Source: Myxococcales bacterium | GTDB lineage: Bacteria; Myxococcota_A; Polyangia; Polyangiales; Houyiibacteriaceae | Direction: 5' to 3' | DNA length: 64,000 bases | NCBI GenBank assembly: GCA_029863605.1 | Contig: JAOTVB010000008.1 | Span: 1 to 64,000 of the forward strand | Shown: one piece after another, positions 29,963-37,013 of the stretch | Numbering within the stretch: position 1 is the first letter of the stretch | Layout: every line of letters begins with the position of its first letter | Notes under the pieces: generated by a model | Told to the model about the DNA's origin: nothing | What the model saw: the letters and a program-made list of their open reading frames with translations, nothing else | Databases searched by the model: none | Position numbers and translations under genes: made by a program

Positions 29963-30933
29963 GGGATCAACACGATCTTGCCGCTCGTTTTGCGTGAACC
30001 GAGCGCAGCGAGTGCCGCTTGGGCCTCCTCGAGCGGGAACGTCCGGGAAACGACGGGCCGGATCTTGCCCTCCGCAAACATCGTCGAAAGTGCCAGCTGC
30101 GACCGACGGAGCACATCTGGATTTTCGTCGAAGTACAGACCCCAGTGGATACCCACGAGTGAAAAGTTCTTGAGGAGGACACGGTTCATCGCGACTGTCG
30201 GGATCCGGCCGCTCGCGAAGCCCACGATGAGGATCCTGCCTTCGAAGGCGATGCATTTGGTGGAGGCATCGAAAGTGTCCCCCCCGACAGGGTCATAGAT
30301 CACGTCCGCGCCGTGTTGATCGGTGAGCTCGTTGACGCGGGCAACCCAGTCTTCCTCGCGATAGTTCACGACGAAATCTGCACCGTTCTGCAGAGCAAGC
30401 TTGAGTTTGTCTTTCGTCCCGGCGGTACCGATGACGCGCGCGCCTAGCGCAGCACCGATCTGAACGGCCGCAAGACCGACCCCTCCCGCGGCCGCATGCA
30501 CCAACAGTGTCTCGCCTGCGCGAAGATTGGCTCGATGGACGAGCGCAACGTGGGAAGTCTGGTACACGAGACCCGCCGCCGCCGCATCTTGGAACGACAT
30601 CTCGGTTGGCATTGAAAACACGCGTTCGGCAGGTGCCGAGACCGCAGACGCGTAGCCTCCGTACGTCAAGAGGGCACTGACCCGGTCCCCCCGAGAAAAC
30701 TGCTCGACGTTTTCTCCGACATCGGTCACGACTCCTGCCACTTCCGCGCCGGGGGCAAATGGTAGCTCGGGGCGAACCTGATACTTCCCCTGCGTGATCA
30801 GGATGTCGAAGAAGTTGCAGCCGACGGCCTTTACGTCGATGCCGACTTCATCTGGTCCGACCTTGAGACTCTCCAGCTCTTCGACTTCGAGAGCATCGGG
30901 GCCACCTAGCTCACGAACGACCATCCGATACAT
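29959..30933 (-). CDS. NADPH:quinone reductase-like protein (medium-chain, zinc-free)
   Basis: A 324-residue enzyme with a GroES-like domain (VGCNFFDILITQGKYQ) and the cofactor motif HAAAGGVGLAAVQIG. It resembles quinone oxidoreductases and NADPH-dependent enoyl reductases. Zinc-binding Cys clusters are absent. Two in-frame ATGs (30933, 30924) are possible starts. Confidence 0.9.
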   Translation of the reverse strand: MYRMVVRELGGPDALEVEELESLKVGPDEVGIDVKAVGCNFFDILITQGKYQVRPELPFAPGAEVAGVVTDVGENVEQFSRGDRVSALLTYGGYASAVSAPAERVFSMPTEMSFQDAAAAGLVYQTSHVALVHRANLRAGETLLVHAAAGGVGLAAVQIGAALGARVIGTAGTKDKLKLALQNGADFVVNYREEDWVARVNELTDQHGADVIYDPVGGDTFDASTKCIAFEGRILIVGFASGRIPTVAMNRVLLKNFSLVGIHWGLYFDENPDVLRRSQLALSTMFAEGKIRPVVSRTFPLEEAQAALAALGSRKTSGKIVLIP

Positions 30934-30997
30934 GATCCGTGAGTTTGCACGTGAAAACGCTCGTCGACTAGGCAAACGCCCAAAACGCACAGCTGCC

Positions 30998-31006
30998 TGG
31001 TATAAG
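30998..31006 (+). promoter_or_regulatory. Candidate extended -10 promoter of HEAT gene
   Basis: TGGTATAAG (TG at 30998-30999, TATAAG at 31001-31006) is an extended -10 motif. No good -35 is present. A start point near 31013 would coincide with the GTG codon, giving a leaderless message. Confidence 0.35.
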
Positions 31007-31012
31007 CGGGGG

Positions 31013-32023
31013 GTGGATGGGCTCAAGCGACGGCACTCACTCCCCGCCGGGGTACTCCCTACCGAAACCCAGGGCGGCACTGAGGACGGGGGCTCACGCG
31101 TTCGAGCCAAAGCTCCGCCGGCCGAGTCCAGGCTCACGAATAGCGTGGGCCCCCCGCCACCTGCGCGTCGCGCCCGACTACTCGTCGACGAGCTCATCGC
31201 GTTGGGTCCGCACGAGATAACGTCGGTGGTGAGACGACTGCTTCCTCTCGGCAACTTCGCCCTCGAGGAGTTGGTCAAGAGCTTCCCTGGCCCCCTGTGG
31301 CGCCCTTCACTCGCGACGGACTCCCGGTTGCTTCGTCCGAACGAAATCTCTGCGTCAGCCGCCGCGATTGCAGCCTTCGCAAGTGAGGCGGTTCCGTACG
31401 TGGCCCGCCTCATGCGACACCCGAGTGGGCAGGTACGTTACTACGCTATCGTCATGTCCGGCGCGTTCGCGGAGACCGATCTCATCGGGCCCCTGGCCAG
31501 GGCCGCACTCGACGAAGACCGGGATTGTCGACGGGTCGCACTCCACATCCTGAGCACCTACCAGCACGAACCCACATATCGTGATGCGCTTGCCGGCCTT
31601 CGACGATCCGCATCCAACGAGGCTGGAGCCCTAGTGGTGCGGCGGCATGCGATCTCGGCACTTACGCAGCTGAGGGACGAAGCATCTGCATCGCTTTTCG
31701 TGGATTTGCTCGGAGATCCCGACAGGGGCATCGCCACTGCGTGTCGCGTCGGCCTACGCGTTCTAACCGCTCACGACTTTGGTTTTTCGCGGGAGCAATG
31801 GCTTCGATGGCTGGCCGAGCGGGGGCAGGAGTCTCGCATCGAATGGCTGATCGAAGGGCTCGGCGATGCGCGTACGAACATTCGCCTTCTGGCGTCGCGG
31901 GAGCTCTGGCGCTTCACCCGCTTCCTTCAGCCGCTACCAGAAACTGCGCATCGCGATGAGTTTCTAACCGCACGGCGCAACTATGAGCGGTGGTGGTCGA
32001 AGCGGAACCCACATCAGGATTGA
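31013..32023 (+). CDS. HEAT-repeat protein, paralogue of the gene at 35001-37013
   Basis: A 336-residue helical repeat protein. The shared segments RYYAI(V), DLLGDPD, the DFG-Ser/x-W-L-W-L core (HDFGFSREQWLRWL) and the ending YERWW match the C-terminal half of the GspE-N/HEAT protein encoded at 35001-37013. HEAT repeats act as protein-binding scaffolds. The start is uncertain: GTG 31013 or ATG 30932. It converges with the HAD gene one base from its stop. Confidence 0.7.
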   Translation: MDGLKRRHSLPAGVLPTETQGGTEDGGSRVRAKAPPAESRLTNSVGPPPPARRARLLVDELIALGPHEITSVVRRLLPLGNFALEELVKSFPGPLWRPSLATDSRLLRPNEISASAAAIAAFASEAVPYVARLMRHPSGQVRYYAIVMSGAFAETDLIGPLARAALDEDRDCRRVALHILSTYQHEPTYRDALAGLRRSASNEAGALVVRRHAISALTQLRDEASASLFVDLLGDPDRGIATACRVGLRVLTAHDFGFSREQWLRWLAERGQESRIEWLIEGLGDARTNIRLLASRELWRFTRFLQPLPETAHRDEFLTARRNYERWWSKRNPHQD

Positions 32024-32024
32024 C

Positions 32025-32603
32025 TCAAATCATCCCGCTCTCCGTGAGATATCGGCGCACGGAATCAAAGCCTTCGAACCTCACTGCATCGATACCGCTC
32101 TGTCTGGCCACGAGGCAGTTCGTCTGCCGATCGTCGACCAGCACGATTTGCTCGGCGGGAATAGCGAGCTCATTGAGCACACGCGCGTACGCAGCCGGAT
32201 CCGGTTTCCGTAACCCCGTGCGGCACGAGACGAACGTCCAGTCGAGGAAGCGGGATAGCCCGAGGCGCTGTTCGATCAGCTCGTACCATACGGGATAGTT
32301 CGAGAACGCGTGCATCGTTACGTCGGCTCCCCGTAGATCCGCTAGGAGCTCCTCCATGCCCGGCAGCCACCGATACGCCGTACGCACCGCATCGACGAAA
32401 CCCCGATGGTCGAAGTCGCGACGGTCCGCGAAAAAATCGTGCAGAAACTCGCTCTCGGTGCGCCGACCCACCTCGAACTCGACCCAGGCGGTCGGATGCT
32501 TCGCGGCGTACATCGCGTCGAAACTCATCCCGAAAAACTCAGGCATCTCCGAAAAGAAGGGGTCGTGGACCAGGGTCCCCATGACATCCCAAAGCAGAAC
32601 CAT
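32025..32603 (-). CDS. HAD-superfamily protein with DxM variant motif
   Basis: A 192-residue HAD-fold protein. The N-terminal motif is WDVMGTLV: the nucleophile Asp6 is present, but the second Asp (Asp+2), the usual acid/base of HAD phosphatases, is Met8. Motif II lies in AFSNYP, Lys in RTGLRKPDP, and the acidic pair in VDDRQTN. The variant may act like dehalogenase-type HADs or be a specialised phosphatase. It lies four bases after the NtrC-like gene. Confidence 0.85.
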   Translation of the reverse strand: MVLLWDVMGTLVHDPFFSEMPEFFGMSFDAMYAAKHPTAWVEFEVGRRTESEFLHDFFADRRDFDHRGFVDAVRTAYRWLPGMEELLADLRGADVTMHAFSNYPVWYELIEQRLGLSRFLDWTFVSCRTGLRKPDPAAYARVLNELAIPAEQIVLVDDRQTNCLVARQSGIDAVRFEGFDSVRRYLTESGMI

Positions 32604-32607
32604 CGCC

Positions 32608-35004
32608 TCACCCCACCGCAGAGCCGCCCACGCTATCCGACGCCTGTTTTTCGAGATCGTGACGCCGCAGCTTGTCGAGGAAGGTCGTTCGCTTGAGGCC
32701 GAGCATCCGGGCTGCCTCGCTCTTGTTACCTCCTGCACGGAAGAGTGCGCGCTCGAGCAGTCGGCGCTCGACTTCCACGTACGTGCCGCTGAGTGAGTCG
32801 TCCGCTCCCCCCGCGGGCCAACCGAGCGGCGGAAGATCCACGAGGCGGATCGACTTGCCCTGCACGCGAGAAACAGCCAACTCGACCATGAACTCCAACT
32901 CCGCGACATCACCGGGCCAGTCATGCGCCACCAGCTCGGCCATGGCCGCTTGCTCGATCCCGACGGGCTCTGAGGCCAACACCCGGCAAGCCCGATCGAT
33001 CGCGAGAAGCACCAAGGAGGGCACGTCCTCACGTCTCTCTCGCAGGGATGGGATCGCGAGGTTGGATCCCGCAAACACATCGACCAGGGTGGGGTCGAGG
33101 GCGCCGCGTCTCTCGAGCTCTTTCAACGGCGTGCGCGCGGTCGCGATGATGCGCACGTCTGCAGAGTCTGCGCTGTGCTCGACGAACACCGTTGCGAGGC
33201 GTGCCTGCGCAGCGAACGGGAGCGCGGGCAAGTCTCGGAGCAGCAGGGTTCCGCCGGTTGCTGACTGGAGCCAGCCTTTGCGGTGGCTCTCTTCTGAGCC
33301 GAACAACAGGCTCATGACGAGGTCCGGCGTCGCAGACGAACAGTCGGCCACCACGAACGGCGCCTCCCATCGCGGCCCTCGATCATGAATGAAGCGCGAT
33401 ATCGGAAGGACGGGGGCACCCGCCGTAGCGATCAGCAAGATCGGTCGGTTGCTCGGCGCGAGCTCGATTGCATGCGTTTGTATGCGCCGCATCGAAGGGC
33501 TGTAAGCTACGTGCAGCGTTTGGTCTTCAGCGAGGCCGCGACCTAGGACGGCAAATTGTCCACGAAGTTCCTCGAGCTCGCCCTCGAGTGCCATGACCCG
33601 GTCTTCGGCGTCGCGTCGAAGCGCCGAAAGCTCGTGGATGTGGGTCTGGGCGCGACGCTGTGCGAGCGCTGACGAGAGTGCCCCTCCTAGTGAGCCGCCC
33701 AAACGTGACAGCGCCGCGAGCTCGATTCGCGACAAAGGCTCCATGCGGTCTCCAATCGGCAGGAGGAGCACGGCCTCGACCTCGTCGAGGTGCGTGCACG
33801 GAACGACTACCCCGATCCCACCGCTCTCCATCGTGTCGACCAGCGCGCGAATCTCGGGCTCGCGCACCACCTCGCTCCGCAGGCTCGCGAGGTCGAGCAC
33901 TCCCGTCCCGGGGCCGCTAAATACGGCATGAACGATGGCGGGGGGTGCATTTCCAGACCGAATCGAAGCGCGGTTGCCGACCTCGAGTCGGATTCGAAGC
34001 GGCGGCTGAATGGTAAAAAGCGCCGGATATCCCTTGTCCTGCCGAAACACTCTCATCAAGGGAGCGAGCGACTCAGTCGCGATCTCCTCGAGGGTCGCAC
34101 CCGCAGCGAGCTCCTTCCGCGCGGCGTGCGCCCCCTCTACGAGTCGGCCCGAGCTCGTCCACACGAGACGGTTTCCGAGTCTCCTCGTACCGGCGAACGT
34201 GATCCACCAAAGTGCACCGATGCCCGCAGCCGCAACCCCGACTGTCCAGGCTGCATCGGAAAGTCTTGGCGCGAAAAAGAATCCCGCACCAAAGGAAACC
34301 GAACACGCCGCGAGAAACGGAACGCCGATGCGCCGCAATGACCTCCATTGCGGATCGATCCACGCCAAGTGGCCTAGCCACAGCAACGCGGCTACGGAAA
34401 ACTCGACGCAAACCCCCAATAGACCGACGAACGGTCCGAACCAAGCGTACGCTAACGCGACCCCGAGCCCGGCCAACGCAATGCCGGAGAGCGCCCCTTC
34501 GAGGGCATGGCCGCGCTCCACCAGGAAGACTTGGTGAAGTGCTCCTGTTGCGATCATCCCGGCCACGACGACGAAGCCGAGGGTCGCATCGGGCAAGAGG
34601 CCCGCCTCAGCGAAGGTCGCGGCCGCCAGAGCAGCGGTGGCGAAGGCGGCCAGAATCGCGTACCGAACGCCAGCCCTGAGCGATCTCGGCAGCACGAGAT
34701 CGAGCATGACCATGGCGGCGCTCAGCCAGGCGAGCCCATGGGTCCACATGAGCGCGCCCGAAGGCGCATCGGCGGTCGCAACTGCGAGCGCGAGCGATGC
34801 GCCCATCCACGCCAAACGCGCAGTGCCGCGCATTGGGGGGGCCGTCAGCAGCAGAACAGGCGTGAGAGATAGGGCCATCGAAAGAACTGCGATCACACCT
34901 CCATACGATGGCGTGACGTGCAACGATGCCCGGGCCGCCAGAACGTAAAGGACGGCCGCCGGACCCAAAATGGTGAAGAGTCTCGGGATTCGGCAGTCTA
35001 TCAC
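32608..35004 (-). CDS. Membrane-bound NtrC-like protein with defective AAA+ domain
   Basis: A 798-residue protein. Residues about 8-285 are about ten membrane spans; about 300-465 resembles a GAF domain; a coiled coil follows. Then comes a sigma-54-activator-like AAA+ domain, and a Fis-type helix-turn-helix at the C-terminus (GGNKSEAARMLGLKRTTFLD). In the AAA+ part the Walker A is replaced by ATAGAPVL, the Walker B reads GGTLLLRDL instead of GGTLFLDE, and GAFTGA is missing. The Arg-rich SLRERREDVP is retained. GTG 35004 overlaps the upstream stop (GTGA). It cannot be a normal sigma-54 activator. Confidence 0.8.
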   Translation of the reverse strand: MIDCRIPRLFTILGPAAVLYVLAARASLHVTPSYGGVIAVLSMALSLTPVLLLTAPPMRGTARLAWMGASLALAVATADAPSGALMWTHGLAWLSAAMVMLDLVLPRSLRAGVRYAILAAFATAALAAATFAEAGLLPDATLGFVVVAGMIATGALHQVFLVERGHALEGALSGIALAGLGVALAYAWFGPFVGLLGVCVEFSVAALLWLGHLAWIDPQWRSLRRIGVPFLAACSVSFGAGFFFAPRLSDAAWTVGVAAAGIGALWWITFAGTRRLGNRLVWTSSGRLVEGAHAARKELAAGATLEEIATESLAPLMRVFRQDKGYPALFTIQPPLRIRLEVGNRASIRSGNAPPAIVHAVFSGPGTGVLDLASLRSEVVREPEIRALVDTMESGGIGVVVPCTHLDEVEAVLLLPIGDRMEPLSRIELAALSRLGGSLGGALSSALAQRRAQTHIHELSALRRDAEDRVMALEGELEELRGQFAVLGRGLAEDQTLHVAYSPSMRRIQTHAIELAPSNRPILLIATAGAPVLPISRFIHDRGPRWEAPFVVADCSSATPDLVMSLLFGSEESHRKGWLQSATGGTLLLRDLPALPFAAQARLATVFVEHSADSADVRIIATARTPLKELERRGALDPTLVDVFAGSNLAIPSLRERREDVPSLVLLAIDRACRVLASEPVGIEQAAMAELVAHDWPGDVAELEFMVELAVSRVQGKSIRLVDLPPLGWPAGGADDSLSGTYVEVERRLLERALFRAGGNKSEAARMLGLKRTTFLDKLRRHDLEKQASDSVGGSAVG

Positions 35005-37013
35005 TGGCCGCGGGCTTGACCAGAACCATTGTGTTCCGGTGGGATGAACATGCGACTCCCCACCTGTTGCCACCAACGACGATACTTCTGCCTCGCTACT
35101 TCCCGTTCACGTTTCGGAAGGCCCGGGTGATATCCGAAATACTCTTGTGTCAGGTGCTTGAGCTCGTCGCTCGCTCGGCGACGAAGGCGCTCGTCCGAGT
35201 GCATGAGCGCGTCGATCAACCATTCCACGCGGTGGAGGGAATCGTTCTTATCGAGCCAAGCGAGCCACTTCTTCTTCGAAGTTCCGAAGTCTTGGCAGCT
35301 CAGTCGCACCAAGCTCGCGTGTGCTGCTCGAGCGACCTCGACTTGGGGACTATCGAGGAGCGACACCAAGAACTCAAACGATTCCGCATCCCGCAAGCGA
35401 CCCAGCGCTTCGATCGAGGTGATCTGGGATCGAAGCTTACGTCCGTCGCGCGCGCCGGCCCGGAGACGGTCGATCAACTCCGTGAATTCTGCTTCGCAAG
35501 CATAGAGCACGCTCAGCGCTCGGTATGCCCCGCTCCGTACCCCAGGATCCGAATCGTAAAGCCGCTGTCCAATCGGCTCAACCAGGCGCGGATCGACGAA
35601 CTCCGATGCAACTAGGGTGGCGTAGTAGCGAACGTCTGGATCCGCGTGGTCGAGTAGAGGAATCAGGTAGGCTACGGAGCGCTGTCCGAACGCGACAAAG
35701 GTCCGAGCGACCGACGAGACATCTCGGCCGGCAGGAATCCGCGCATGCGGCTCGTTGCGATCGAACCACAGCCTCCCAGGGAACTCGCGCGCAAGGGCCG
35801 GCAGAGCTCCCTCTCCTGCCGCGAGCAGCGGCAGGATCAGCATTTCGTCCTCAGGTCCGGCGACTCGCAATGCCGCGATGAGCTGCTCCACGTCTTCGCC
35901 GACGTCGACGATGACGCTCGGGAGTGATCCTTCCGAAGTGTTTGGCGGGGGTGCGGGCGCCCATCGCACCTTGCCAACGCGCTCGGCCGGCTCGCTTGGA
36001 GGCGCGGAGCTCGGCACCGTCGGGCCGAGGGTGACCACATCGTGGGTGACCGCGCTTCCATCGTTGTCACGTCGGTCATCCGAAGGCACCGACCGCCGCC
36101 GCGCTCCGCGAGGTTTGGAATCCTGAGCGGTCGGCTGGGGCGCCGGCTTCCAGCCCGAGGGTGGCTCGGCGTGCGGGTCTGAAGATCGCGCTGTTTCTGG
36201 GGGGGCCCGCCGCGAAGCGCGAGGAACTGGAGTCGGTTGCCCGAGGACCTCCGCTGGACGAGGCGGCAAGCTGTAACGAGTCGCGTCGATGAAACCGGAC
36301 GTGGCCTTCGCGCGTTTGCGCCGAGGCGAGGCGGGATCCGAATCTCGGAAGGTCCCCGCAGGCACCGACGATCCGAGTTGAGGGGGGGTCGCCGGTGGAG
36401 GCTCCGTGTCCGCGATGGCTGCTGGAGCGGGAATGGAGGAGTCGACTCGTGGATACGAGCCGGAGACCTTTTTGCGCGGTGGCAGTGAGCTACGCTTTCC
36501 CGCGCCTTCAAACGGTGCGACATAGGGAACGGCGCCCTCTTCGGCACGATCCAGCTCCGCTGCGAGCTTGCGCATGCGGGCGGTCATTTCGATGTCGTAG
36601 TGCTTTGCCAAGCCGGCCTCGACGCGGACGGAGCACACCACGCGTTGCACCGGATCGACGCCCAGCTCGAATGCGATCTCGCGCAAGATGGCATCGGGCA
36701 GTGGTCGGTCGACCGCAAGTACGATGGCATCTTCGGTGCGGGCGAGGGGGACTAGACGGTGTCGAACCGCAAACTCGCGGGGTAGCATGCGAATCGTCGC
36801 CAGCCTGACCTGCATGACCTCTGCCCGTGTCGCGGGCATGAGCCCATAAACTGCGGCGCAATAGGCGCTCATCTGATTCTCGCTGACGCACCCGAGCTCG
36901 AGCAACACCGTGTCCAAGTTGCCGCCCCGAATGACCTGCTCCTGAATCGCCTCCTGGACGCGATCGACCGCGAGGAGCTGATCGCGGACCAAGAGCGAGG
37001 CGAGCACGGACAT
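35001..37013 (-). CDS. GspE N-terminal-like domain plus HEAT-repeat protein
   Basis: A 670-residue protein. Residues 1-150 resemble the N-terminal domain of GspE/PilB ATPases (MshEN-type), with the helix pair around LLELGCVSENQ and the strand segment HRLVPLARTEDAIVLAVDRPLPD. No ATPase domain follows. Residues about 165-365 are a proline-rich, charged linker, and about 375-640 are HEAT repeats (LLDHADPDVRYYATL). The RLG pattern that binds cyclic-di-GMP in MshEN is not intact. The stop overlaps the NtrC-like gene (GTGA). The end is paralogous to 31013-32023. Confidence 0.75.
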   Translation of the reverse strand: MSVLASLLVRDQLLAVDRVQEAIQEQVIRGGNLDTVLLELGCVSENQMSAYCAAVYGLMPATRAEVMQVRLATIRMLPREFAVRHRLVPLARTEDAIVLAVDRPLPDAILREIAFELGVDPVQRVVCSVRVEAGLAKHYDIEMTARMRKLAAELDRAEEGAVPYVAPFEGAGKRSSLPPRKKVSGSYPRVDSSIPAPAAIADTEPPPATPPQLGSSVPAGTFRDSDPASPRRKRAKATSGFIDATRYSLPPRPAEVLGQPTPVPRASRRAPPETARSSDPHAEPPSGWKPAPQPTAQDSKPRGARRRSVPSDDRRDNDGSAVTHDVVTLGPTVPSSAPPSEPAERVGKVRWAPAPPPNTSEGSLPSVIVDVGEDVEQLIAALRVAGPEDEMLILPLLAAGEGALPALAREFPGRLWFDRNEPHARIPAGRDVSSVARTFVAFGQRSVAYLIPLLDHADPDVRYYATLVASEFVDPRLVEPIGQRLYDSDPGVRSGAYRALSVLYACEAEFTELIDRLRAGARDGRKLRSQITSIEALGRLRDAESFEFLVSLLDSPQVEVARAAHASLVRLSCQDFGTSKKKWLAWLDKNDSLHRVEWLIDALMHSDERLRRRASDELKHLTQEYFGYHPGLPKREREVARQKYRRWWQQVGSRMFIPPEHNGSGQARGQ

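Follow-up and report, generated by a model that had tools for sequence, protein, structure and literature searches.

What would an NtrC-type protein do without its motor? Few AAA+ machines have been studied as thoroughly as the NtrC-type activators, and the ATPase is regarded as the reason these activators exist. The window analyzed here (the whole 64,000-nucleotide stretch from a Myxococcales bacterium) contains an open reading frame, running from a GTG start to a TGA stop (32608..35004, reverse strand, as are all features within it), which encodes a pseudo-NtrC membrane protein of 798 amino acids. The domain order set out in the original prediction (about ten membrane spans, a GAF domain, a coiled coil, an AAA+ domain, and a Fis-type helix-turn-helix [HTH]) was borne out by Pfam, hydropathy, structural models, and the GAF matches of relatives. 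Residues 1 to 280 (34165..35004) make up the putative membrane domain, with nine hydropathy windows above 1.4 across residues 6 to 273 and ten helices within residues 7 to 271 of a low-confidence single-sequence model of the whole protein (pLDDT, 43.6), a poor model that served for helices alone; a Pfam search found no family for this domain. Nor did the GAF-like domain (residues about 290 to 415; 33760..34137) give a Pfam match in the window protein; among 29 relatives, however, 10 matched PF01590 (best E value, 1.6e-4), and an AlphaFold model has a well-predicted domain at this position. It is followed by a long coiled-coil helix (residues 426 to 492; 33529..33729), seen in both models as a single helix of about 66 residues. 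The AAA+ core (residues 497 to 652; 33049..33516) was identified by Pfam (PF14532 [Sigma54_activ_2], 9.8e-16; PF00158 [Sigma54_activat], 1.7e-13), by alignment, and by fold comparison, and the lid (residues 655 to 726; 32827..33042) by AAA_lid_14 (1.3e-12) and by its conservation in the family. A Fis-type HTH (residues 744 to 781; 32662..32775; HTH_8, 5.7e-11) comes last, so that, by hydropathy and the HTH_8 match, membrane spans and a DNA-binding domain are predicted to lie on one chain.

The ATPase motifs of this AAA+ core have been lost rather than shifted. When the protein was aligned with 19 canonical activators from the same genome, ATAGAPVL (residues 526 to 533; 33406..33429) fell without a gap exactly on GESGTGKE, the Walker A motif, and GGTLLLRDL (residues 584 to 592; 33229..33255) fell exactly on GGTLFLDEI, the Walker B motif, with the Asp lost and the Glu replaced by a conserved Asp (Asp591). 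The GAFTGA loop L1 was represented by a deletion (LFGSEESHRKGW) at residues 569 to 578 (33271..33300). All three changes had been predicted, and all three proved to be shared with the relatives: among 62 aligned family members, none kept the Walker A Lys, the Walker B Asp, or GAFTGA (the last mostly through deletion), and the position of the Walker B Glu was occupied by Asp in 57. The first R-finger Arg was likewise found in 0 of 62, and the second was retained in 26 and lost in 36, including the window protein. The arginine-rich end that the prediction regarded as kept consists of the LRERRED stretch of the lid and the LKRTTFLDKLRR helix of the HTH; the catalytic arginines (the R-fingers and those of FREDLYYRL) are gone from this protein. 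Where the lid begins, by contrast, 61 of the 62 members retain the second Arg of LRER, and all 62 retain the Asp after it.

These counts exclude fragments (L031, L046, L066, L070, L074, L078, L219, and L227) and a duplicate (L022). Controls were drawn from two sources. The 19 canonical sequences are phmmer matches in the same genome, not counting the weak hits L023 to L028; L018, whose motifs are intact by eye, and L021 were not matched by phmmer and thus fall outside the 19. Walker A and Walker B were present in all 19 and GAFTGA was present in 18. On 57 activators from other groups, the initial patterns turned out to be too strict (Walker A, 53; Walker B, 14), and relaxed patterns recovered Walker A in 57 and Walker B as written in 50, with GAFTGA in 56. 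Because every one of the 62 members in the tree set shows it, the pattern of motif loss exceeds chance. The same genome also offers a less severe form of this loss in a second activator-like protein (L017; G000 contig 49, 18529-19032), which keeps Walker A and Walker B and has GPGGHSTA in place of GAFTGA.

Structure prediction and comparison with NtrC and PspF, which had been suggested as a check, matched the NtrC-type fold and did not reveal motifs that had merely moved. The AlphaFold model, of residues 290 to 786 (497 residues; 20 sequences), reached a mean pLDDT of 84.4 and a pTM of 0.49, and the comparison covers mainly its AAA+ part. This part matched NtrC1 (1ny5; VIA Z, 27.0; 1.9 Å over 234 aligned residues), PspF (2c9c; VIA Z, 26.5; 2.9 Å over 231), and VpsR (7v2b; Z, 25.6; 2.4 Å over 230), as well as structures of FlrC and LuxO, while several Foldseek matches to longer chains had a large root mean square deviation. 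In the model, the predicted AAA+ fold is thus intact and the active site alone is gone. Alignment, fold comparison, and the pattern tests with their controls together ruled out shifted or hidden Walker motifs, the finding that would have spoken against the prediction.

Is the gene simply decaying? Apart from the motif loss itself, we found no support either for decay or for a wrong alignment hiding intact motifs, and we consider this explanation extremely improbable: against misalignment stand the gapless alignment of the motifs and the agreement of the folds, and against decay stand both conservation and selection. Within the genus, the gene was found in 17 of the 18 other genomes, the exception (G002) being 80% complete, and the matches in these 17 exceeded 58% identity, except for split or partial copies. 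In six closely related pairs drawn from 16 sequences of the genus, dN/dS was below 0.4 in every domain, at 0.10 to 0.22 for the membrane domain, 0.14 to 0.39 for GAF, 0.07 to 0.25 for the coil, 0.13 to 0.24 for the AAA core, 0.07 to 0.13 for the lid, and 0 to 0.08, the lowest range, for the HTH. These ratios indicate that every domain is under purifying selection and that the gene is not decaying, a candidate explanation that they rule out. The dead P-loop itself appears to be constrained within the genus, its former Walker A stretch (16 residues) having undergone no amino acid change in four of the six pairs. In one genome (G015), the gene lies in two halves on contig 1 (206426-207463, reverse strand, and 2286591-2287955, forward strand), about 2 Mb apart, a split that resembles a break by inversion or misassembly; L046 holds the second half.

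The loss also appears to be old. With a profile of the membrane-GAF half, matches were obtained in 75 of 96 genomes of relatives and in 29 of 282 genomes across the phylum, every one of the latter in the same order; the relatives that carry names are Sandaracinus, Sandaracinaceae, and Myxococcales metagenome-assembled genomes, which puts the window in or near Sandaracinaceae. An ancestor with this N-terminal half and an intact motor was sought with the same profile, which matched nothing outside the order in the 282 sampled genomes (E value, 1e-8), nor did any family member prove to have an intact motor. In FastTree phylogenies, the AAA+ cores of the family grouped together as one clade, separate from the canonical activators (support for the split, 1.0; length of the stem, 1.0), with some deeper nodes within the family weak (0.14 and 0.58). 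Given that our searches turned up no intact motor in the family, the motif loss most likely preceded the spread of the family within the order. What had been described for this one protein is real as a loss, but it is not peculiar to it; it is seemingly an ancient, order-wide trait, common to 62 of 62 members.

Compared with activators of the NtrC/PspF type, to which it is homologous by sequence and structure, the protein shares the AAA+ fold, the lid, and the Fis-type HTH in the same order, but it lacks the Walker A Lys, the Walker B Asp-Glu pair, the GAFTGA loop, and the R-fingers, and its AAA+ core is preceded by about ten predicted membrane spans and a GAF-like domain. According to a review, the activity of PspF and NtrC1 is tied to the residues that are missing here (PMC7175178). 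As judged from the sequence, activation of sigma-54 by the known mechanism is very unlikely because the residues needed for that activity are gone; with the essential motifs absent from all 62 members, the original conclusion that the protein must work in some way other than the sigma-54 ATPase mechanism is supported. An indirect effect on sigma-54, in which the protein would enter dimers or rings together with an intact activator of the cell and so poison or tune activation, is unlikely in our judgment. The retained AAA+ fold and lid would suit such a subunit, and the genome has one rpoN gene and 19 tested activators in which the Walker motifs are intact, but the first R-finger, which would reach into the site of the neighboring subunit, was lost in 62 of 62 members and the second in 36.

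Degenerate NtrC relatives without GAFTGA are already known as a kind, and the window protein shares with those of the VpsR, TyrR, and HupR kind the activator fold and a Fis HTH without GAFTGA. To our knowledge, none of VpsR, TyrR, DhaR, HupR, and the NtrC proteins of Rhodobacter capsulatus and Caulobacter is a ten-span membrane protein. In all of these, the sigma-54 contact loop is substituted or deleted, and such relatives are taken not to act through sigma-54 and are described as acting at sigma-70 promoters (PMC3162934, PMC10274813). Caulobacter NtrC is reported to need its Walker A and Walker B residues (PMC10274813), whereas the pseudo-NtrC family has neither the Walker A Lys nor the Walker B Asp. 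What is new here is the predicted membrane anchor, the order-wide loss of the active site, and the repeated loss of the HTH described below; in the literature searched, from which most subscription journals were absent, we recognized no description of the family.

The within-genus near-constancy of the former P-loop raises the question of whether the altered pocket has kept the ability to bind a nucleotide or cyclic dinucleotide, with this stretch in the ligand site. The near absence of change there, the Asp at the Walker B Glu position in 57 of 62 members, and the precedent of FleQ, which is reported to bind c-di-GMP next to its Walker A (PMC9303241), would all fit. Nevertheless, we regard such binding as quite improbable, given that the Walker A Lys and the Walker B Asp are absent in all members and that the former Walker A sequence varies widely across the order.

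The C-terminal HTH points in another direction. Its consensus, GNKSEAARLLGLKRTTFLDKLRRHGL, is near-invariant among 29 HTH-bearing sequences, and a family HTH profile scored at least 36 bits in 46 of the 62 members. In the other 16, this profile gave no real match, nor was an HTH found in the forward frames of up to 900 bases downstream of these genes (less at contig ends, as for L081). Parsimony on the tree, some inner nodes of which are weak, required three changes from an HTH-bearing ancestor, suggesting that the HTH was lost in about three events. Several HTH-less members of one lineage (L217 to L225) end in an arginine-rich tail. A shared binding site was sought upstream of 20 relatives, in stretches of 380 bases (the 350 ahead of the start and 30 of the gene), and no shared palindrome or word rose above shuffled sequences; two palindromes with 7-base half-sites each occurred in two sequences (shuffle maximum, one) of a set that includes close relatives. 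The proposal of a membrane-tethered DNA-binding protein fits the conserved HTH on a predicted membrane protein and is the best reading for the window member, but it is incomplete: with 16 of 62 relatives lacking the HTH, DNA binding is not what lies at the core of the family and cannot account for all that the family does, and the membrane-GAF-pseudo-AAA part therefore probably has an additional, DNA-independent role.

A candidate partner in such a role is suggested by the neighboring genes. Immediately upstream, on the same strand (35001..37013), lies a gene for a 670-amino-acid protein with an MshEN domain and HEAT repeats (Pfam), the stop codon of which overlaps the GTG start of the pseudo-NtrC gene by 4 bp (GTGA). 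Four bases past the pseudo-NtrC stop, a gene for a HAD-family hydrolase follows (32025..32603, reverse strand), and it adjoins the pseudo-NtrC gene in most genus loci. A further HEAT-repeat protein (window 30794-32023, forward strand), the C-terminal part of which is similar to MshEN-HEAT, is present in most genus loci as well. MshEN-HEAT was adjacent in all 18 gene-bearing genomes of the genus (in G011 across a contig break and in G015 beside a split half). Among the 29 other genomes that had a strong match, the two genes lay no more than 15 kb apart in 13; in two of the remaining 16, a single long contig carried both at a distance of about 0.5 Mb, and in the others they were on different contigs. 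Because relatives of MshEN-HEAT were present in 94 of 96 genomes, against 75 of 96 for the membrane-GAF half, it is a neighbor and not an obligate partner. The idea of c-di-GMP acting through the MshEN neighbor was set aside: against the NCBIfam c-di-GMP motif model, the neighbor scored 26.7 (cutoff, 38), and by eye it departs from the MshEN binding motif. In other genera of the order, MshEN-HEAT has an extra middle domain that is absent from the window genus, and at several loci there (L060, L073, L092, L093, L094, L096, L098, and L101) the pseudo-NtrC gene lies near the gene for NAD-dependent DNA ligase (ligA) and/or a Ser/Thr kinase gene whose product has a conserved domain at its C terminus.

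The proximity of MshEN-HEAT and, in several relatives, of the Ser/Thr kinase gene, together with the fact that the membrane, GAF, and pseudo-AAA parts stayed while the HTH was dropped about three times, favors the main rival to a DNA-binding regulator: the protein could be a membrane scaffold or adapter, with the pseudo-AAA domain mainly a module for interaction with MshEN-HEAT, the kinase, or another protein and with the HTH secondary. Serious as it is, we find this reading rather doubtful, since the HTH is the most constrained part in the window genus and near-invariant across HTH-bearing relatives, unlike a leftover, and since no MshEN-HEAT gene was found flanking any of the 16 HTH-less loci (some of the flanks being short). 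A scaffold or docking role and a dimeric regulator are compatible and not mutually exclusive.

For the HTH-bearing members, the explanation that we prefer, with about even confidence, is a membrane-anchored, ATP-independent, dimeric one-component regulator, derived from an NtrC-type activator, in which the AAA+ motor is dead. The analysis shows the sequence anatomy, the loss of the motifs and its age, the selection, the gene linkage, and the HTH losses; membrane insertion, dimerization, DNA binding, action with sigma-70, a partner, and a signal are all elements that we infer. The ten-span domain, along with the GAF domain, would sense the signal, which would travel through the 66-residue coiled coil, the part that would keep two chains together as a dimer; the AAA+ domain, devoid of ATPase activity in this view, would serve with its lid as a rigid scaffold and docking surface, and the Fis-type HTH would bind DNA at promoters of the sigma-70 type, needing neither ATP nor contact with sigma-54. 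The docking surface would probably also bind a cytoplasmic partner, for which the coencoded MshEN-HEAT protein is the first candidate, and such binding would explain why the HTH was dispensable in several lineages that kept the rest. CadC and ToxR are membrane one-component transcription factors in which a winged HTH precedes a single span. The logic proposed here, sensing at the membrane and DNA binding from the membrane, would be similar to theirs, but many spans come first in the pseudo-NtrC protein and the AAA+ scaffold and Fis HTH come last.

In this family, which gained a membrane domain of many spans, what was once a motor seems to serve now as a passive component of a membrane signaling protein. 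That the catalytic residues were dropped while the fold and the lid were kept under selection across an order shows that the AAA+ fold has uses of its own, and the natural split into HTH-bearing and HTH-less members allows one to ask what an AAA+ scaffold does without ATP. Only tentatively, we propose a broader possibility, that this order turned a sigma-54 activator into a receptor chassis, in which the dead AAA+ domain would relay the ten-span signal to DNA or to a protein partner depending on the lineage, with the HTH kept or lost. If that is true, a single family would switch between gene regulation and protein signaling by way of its HTH.
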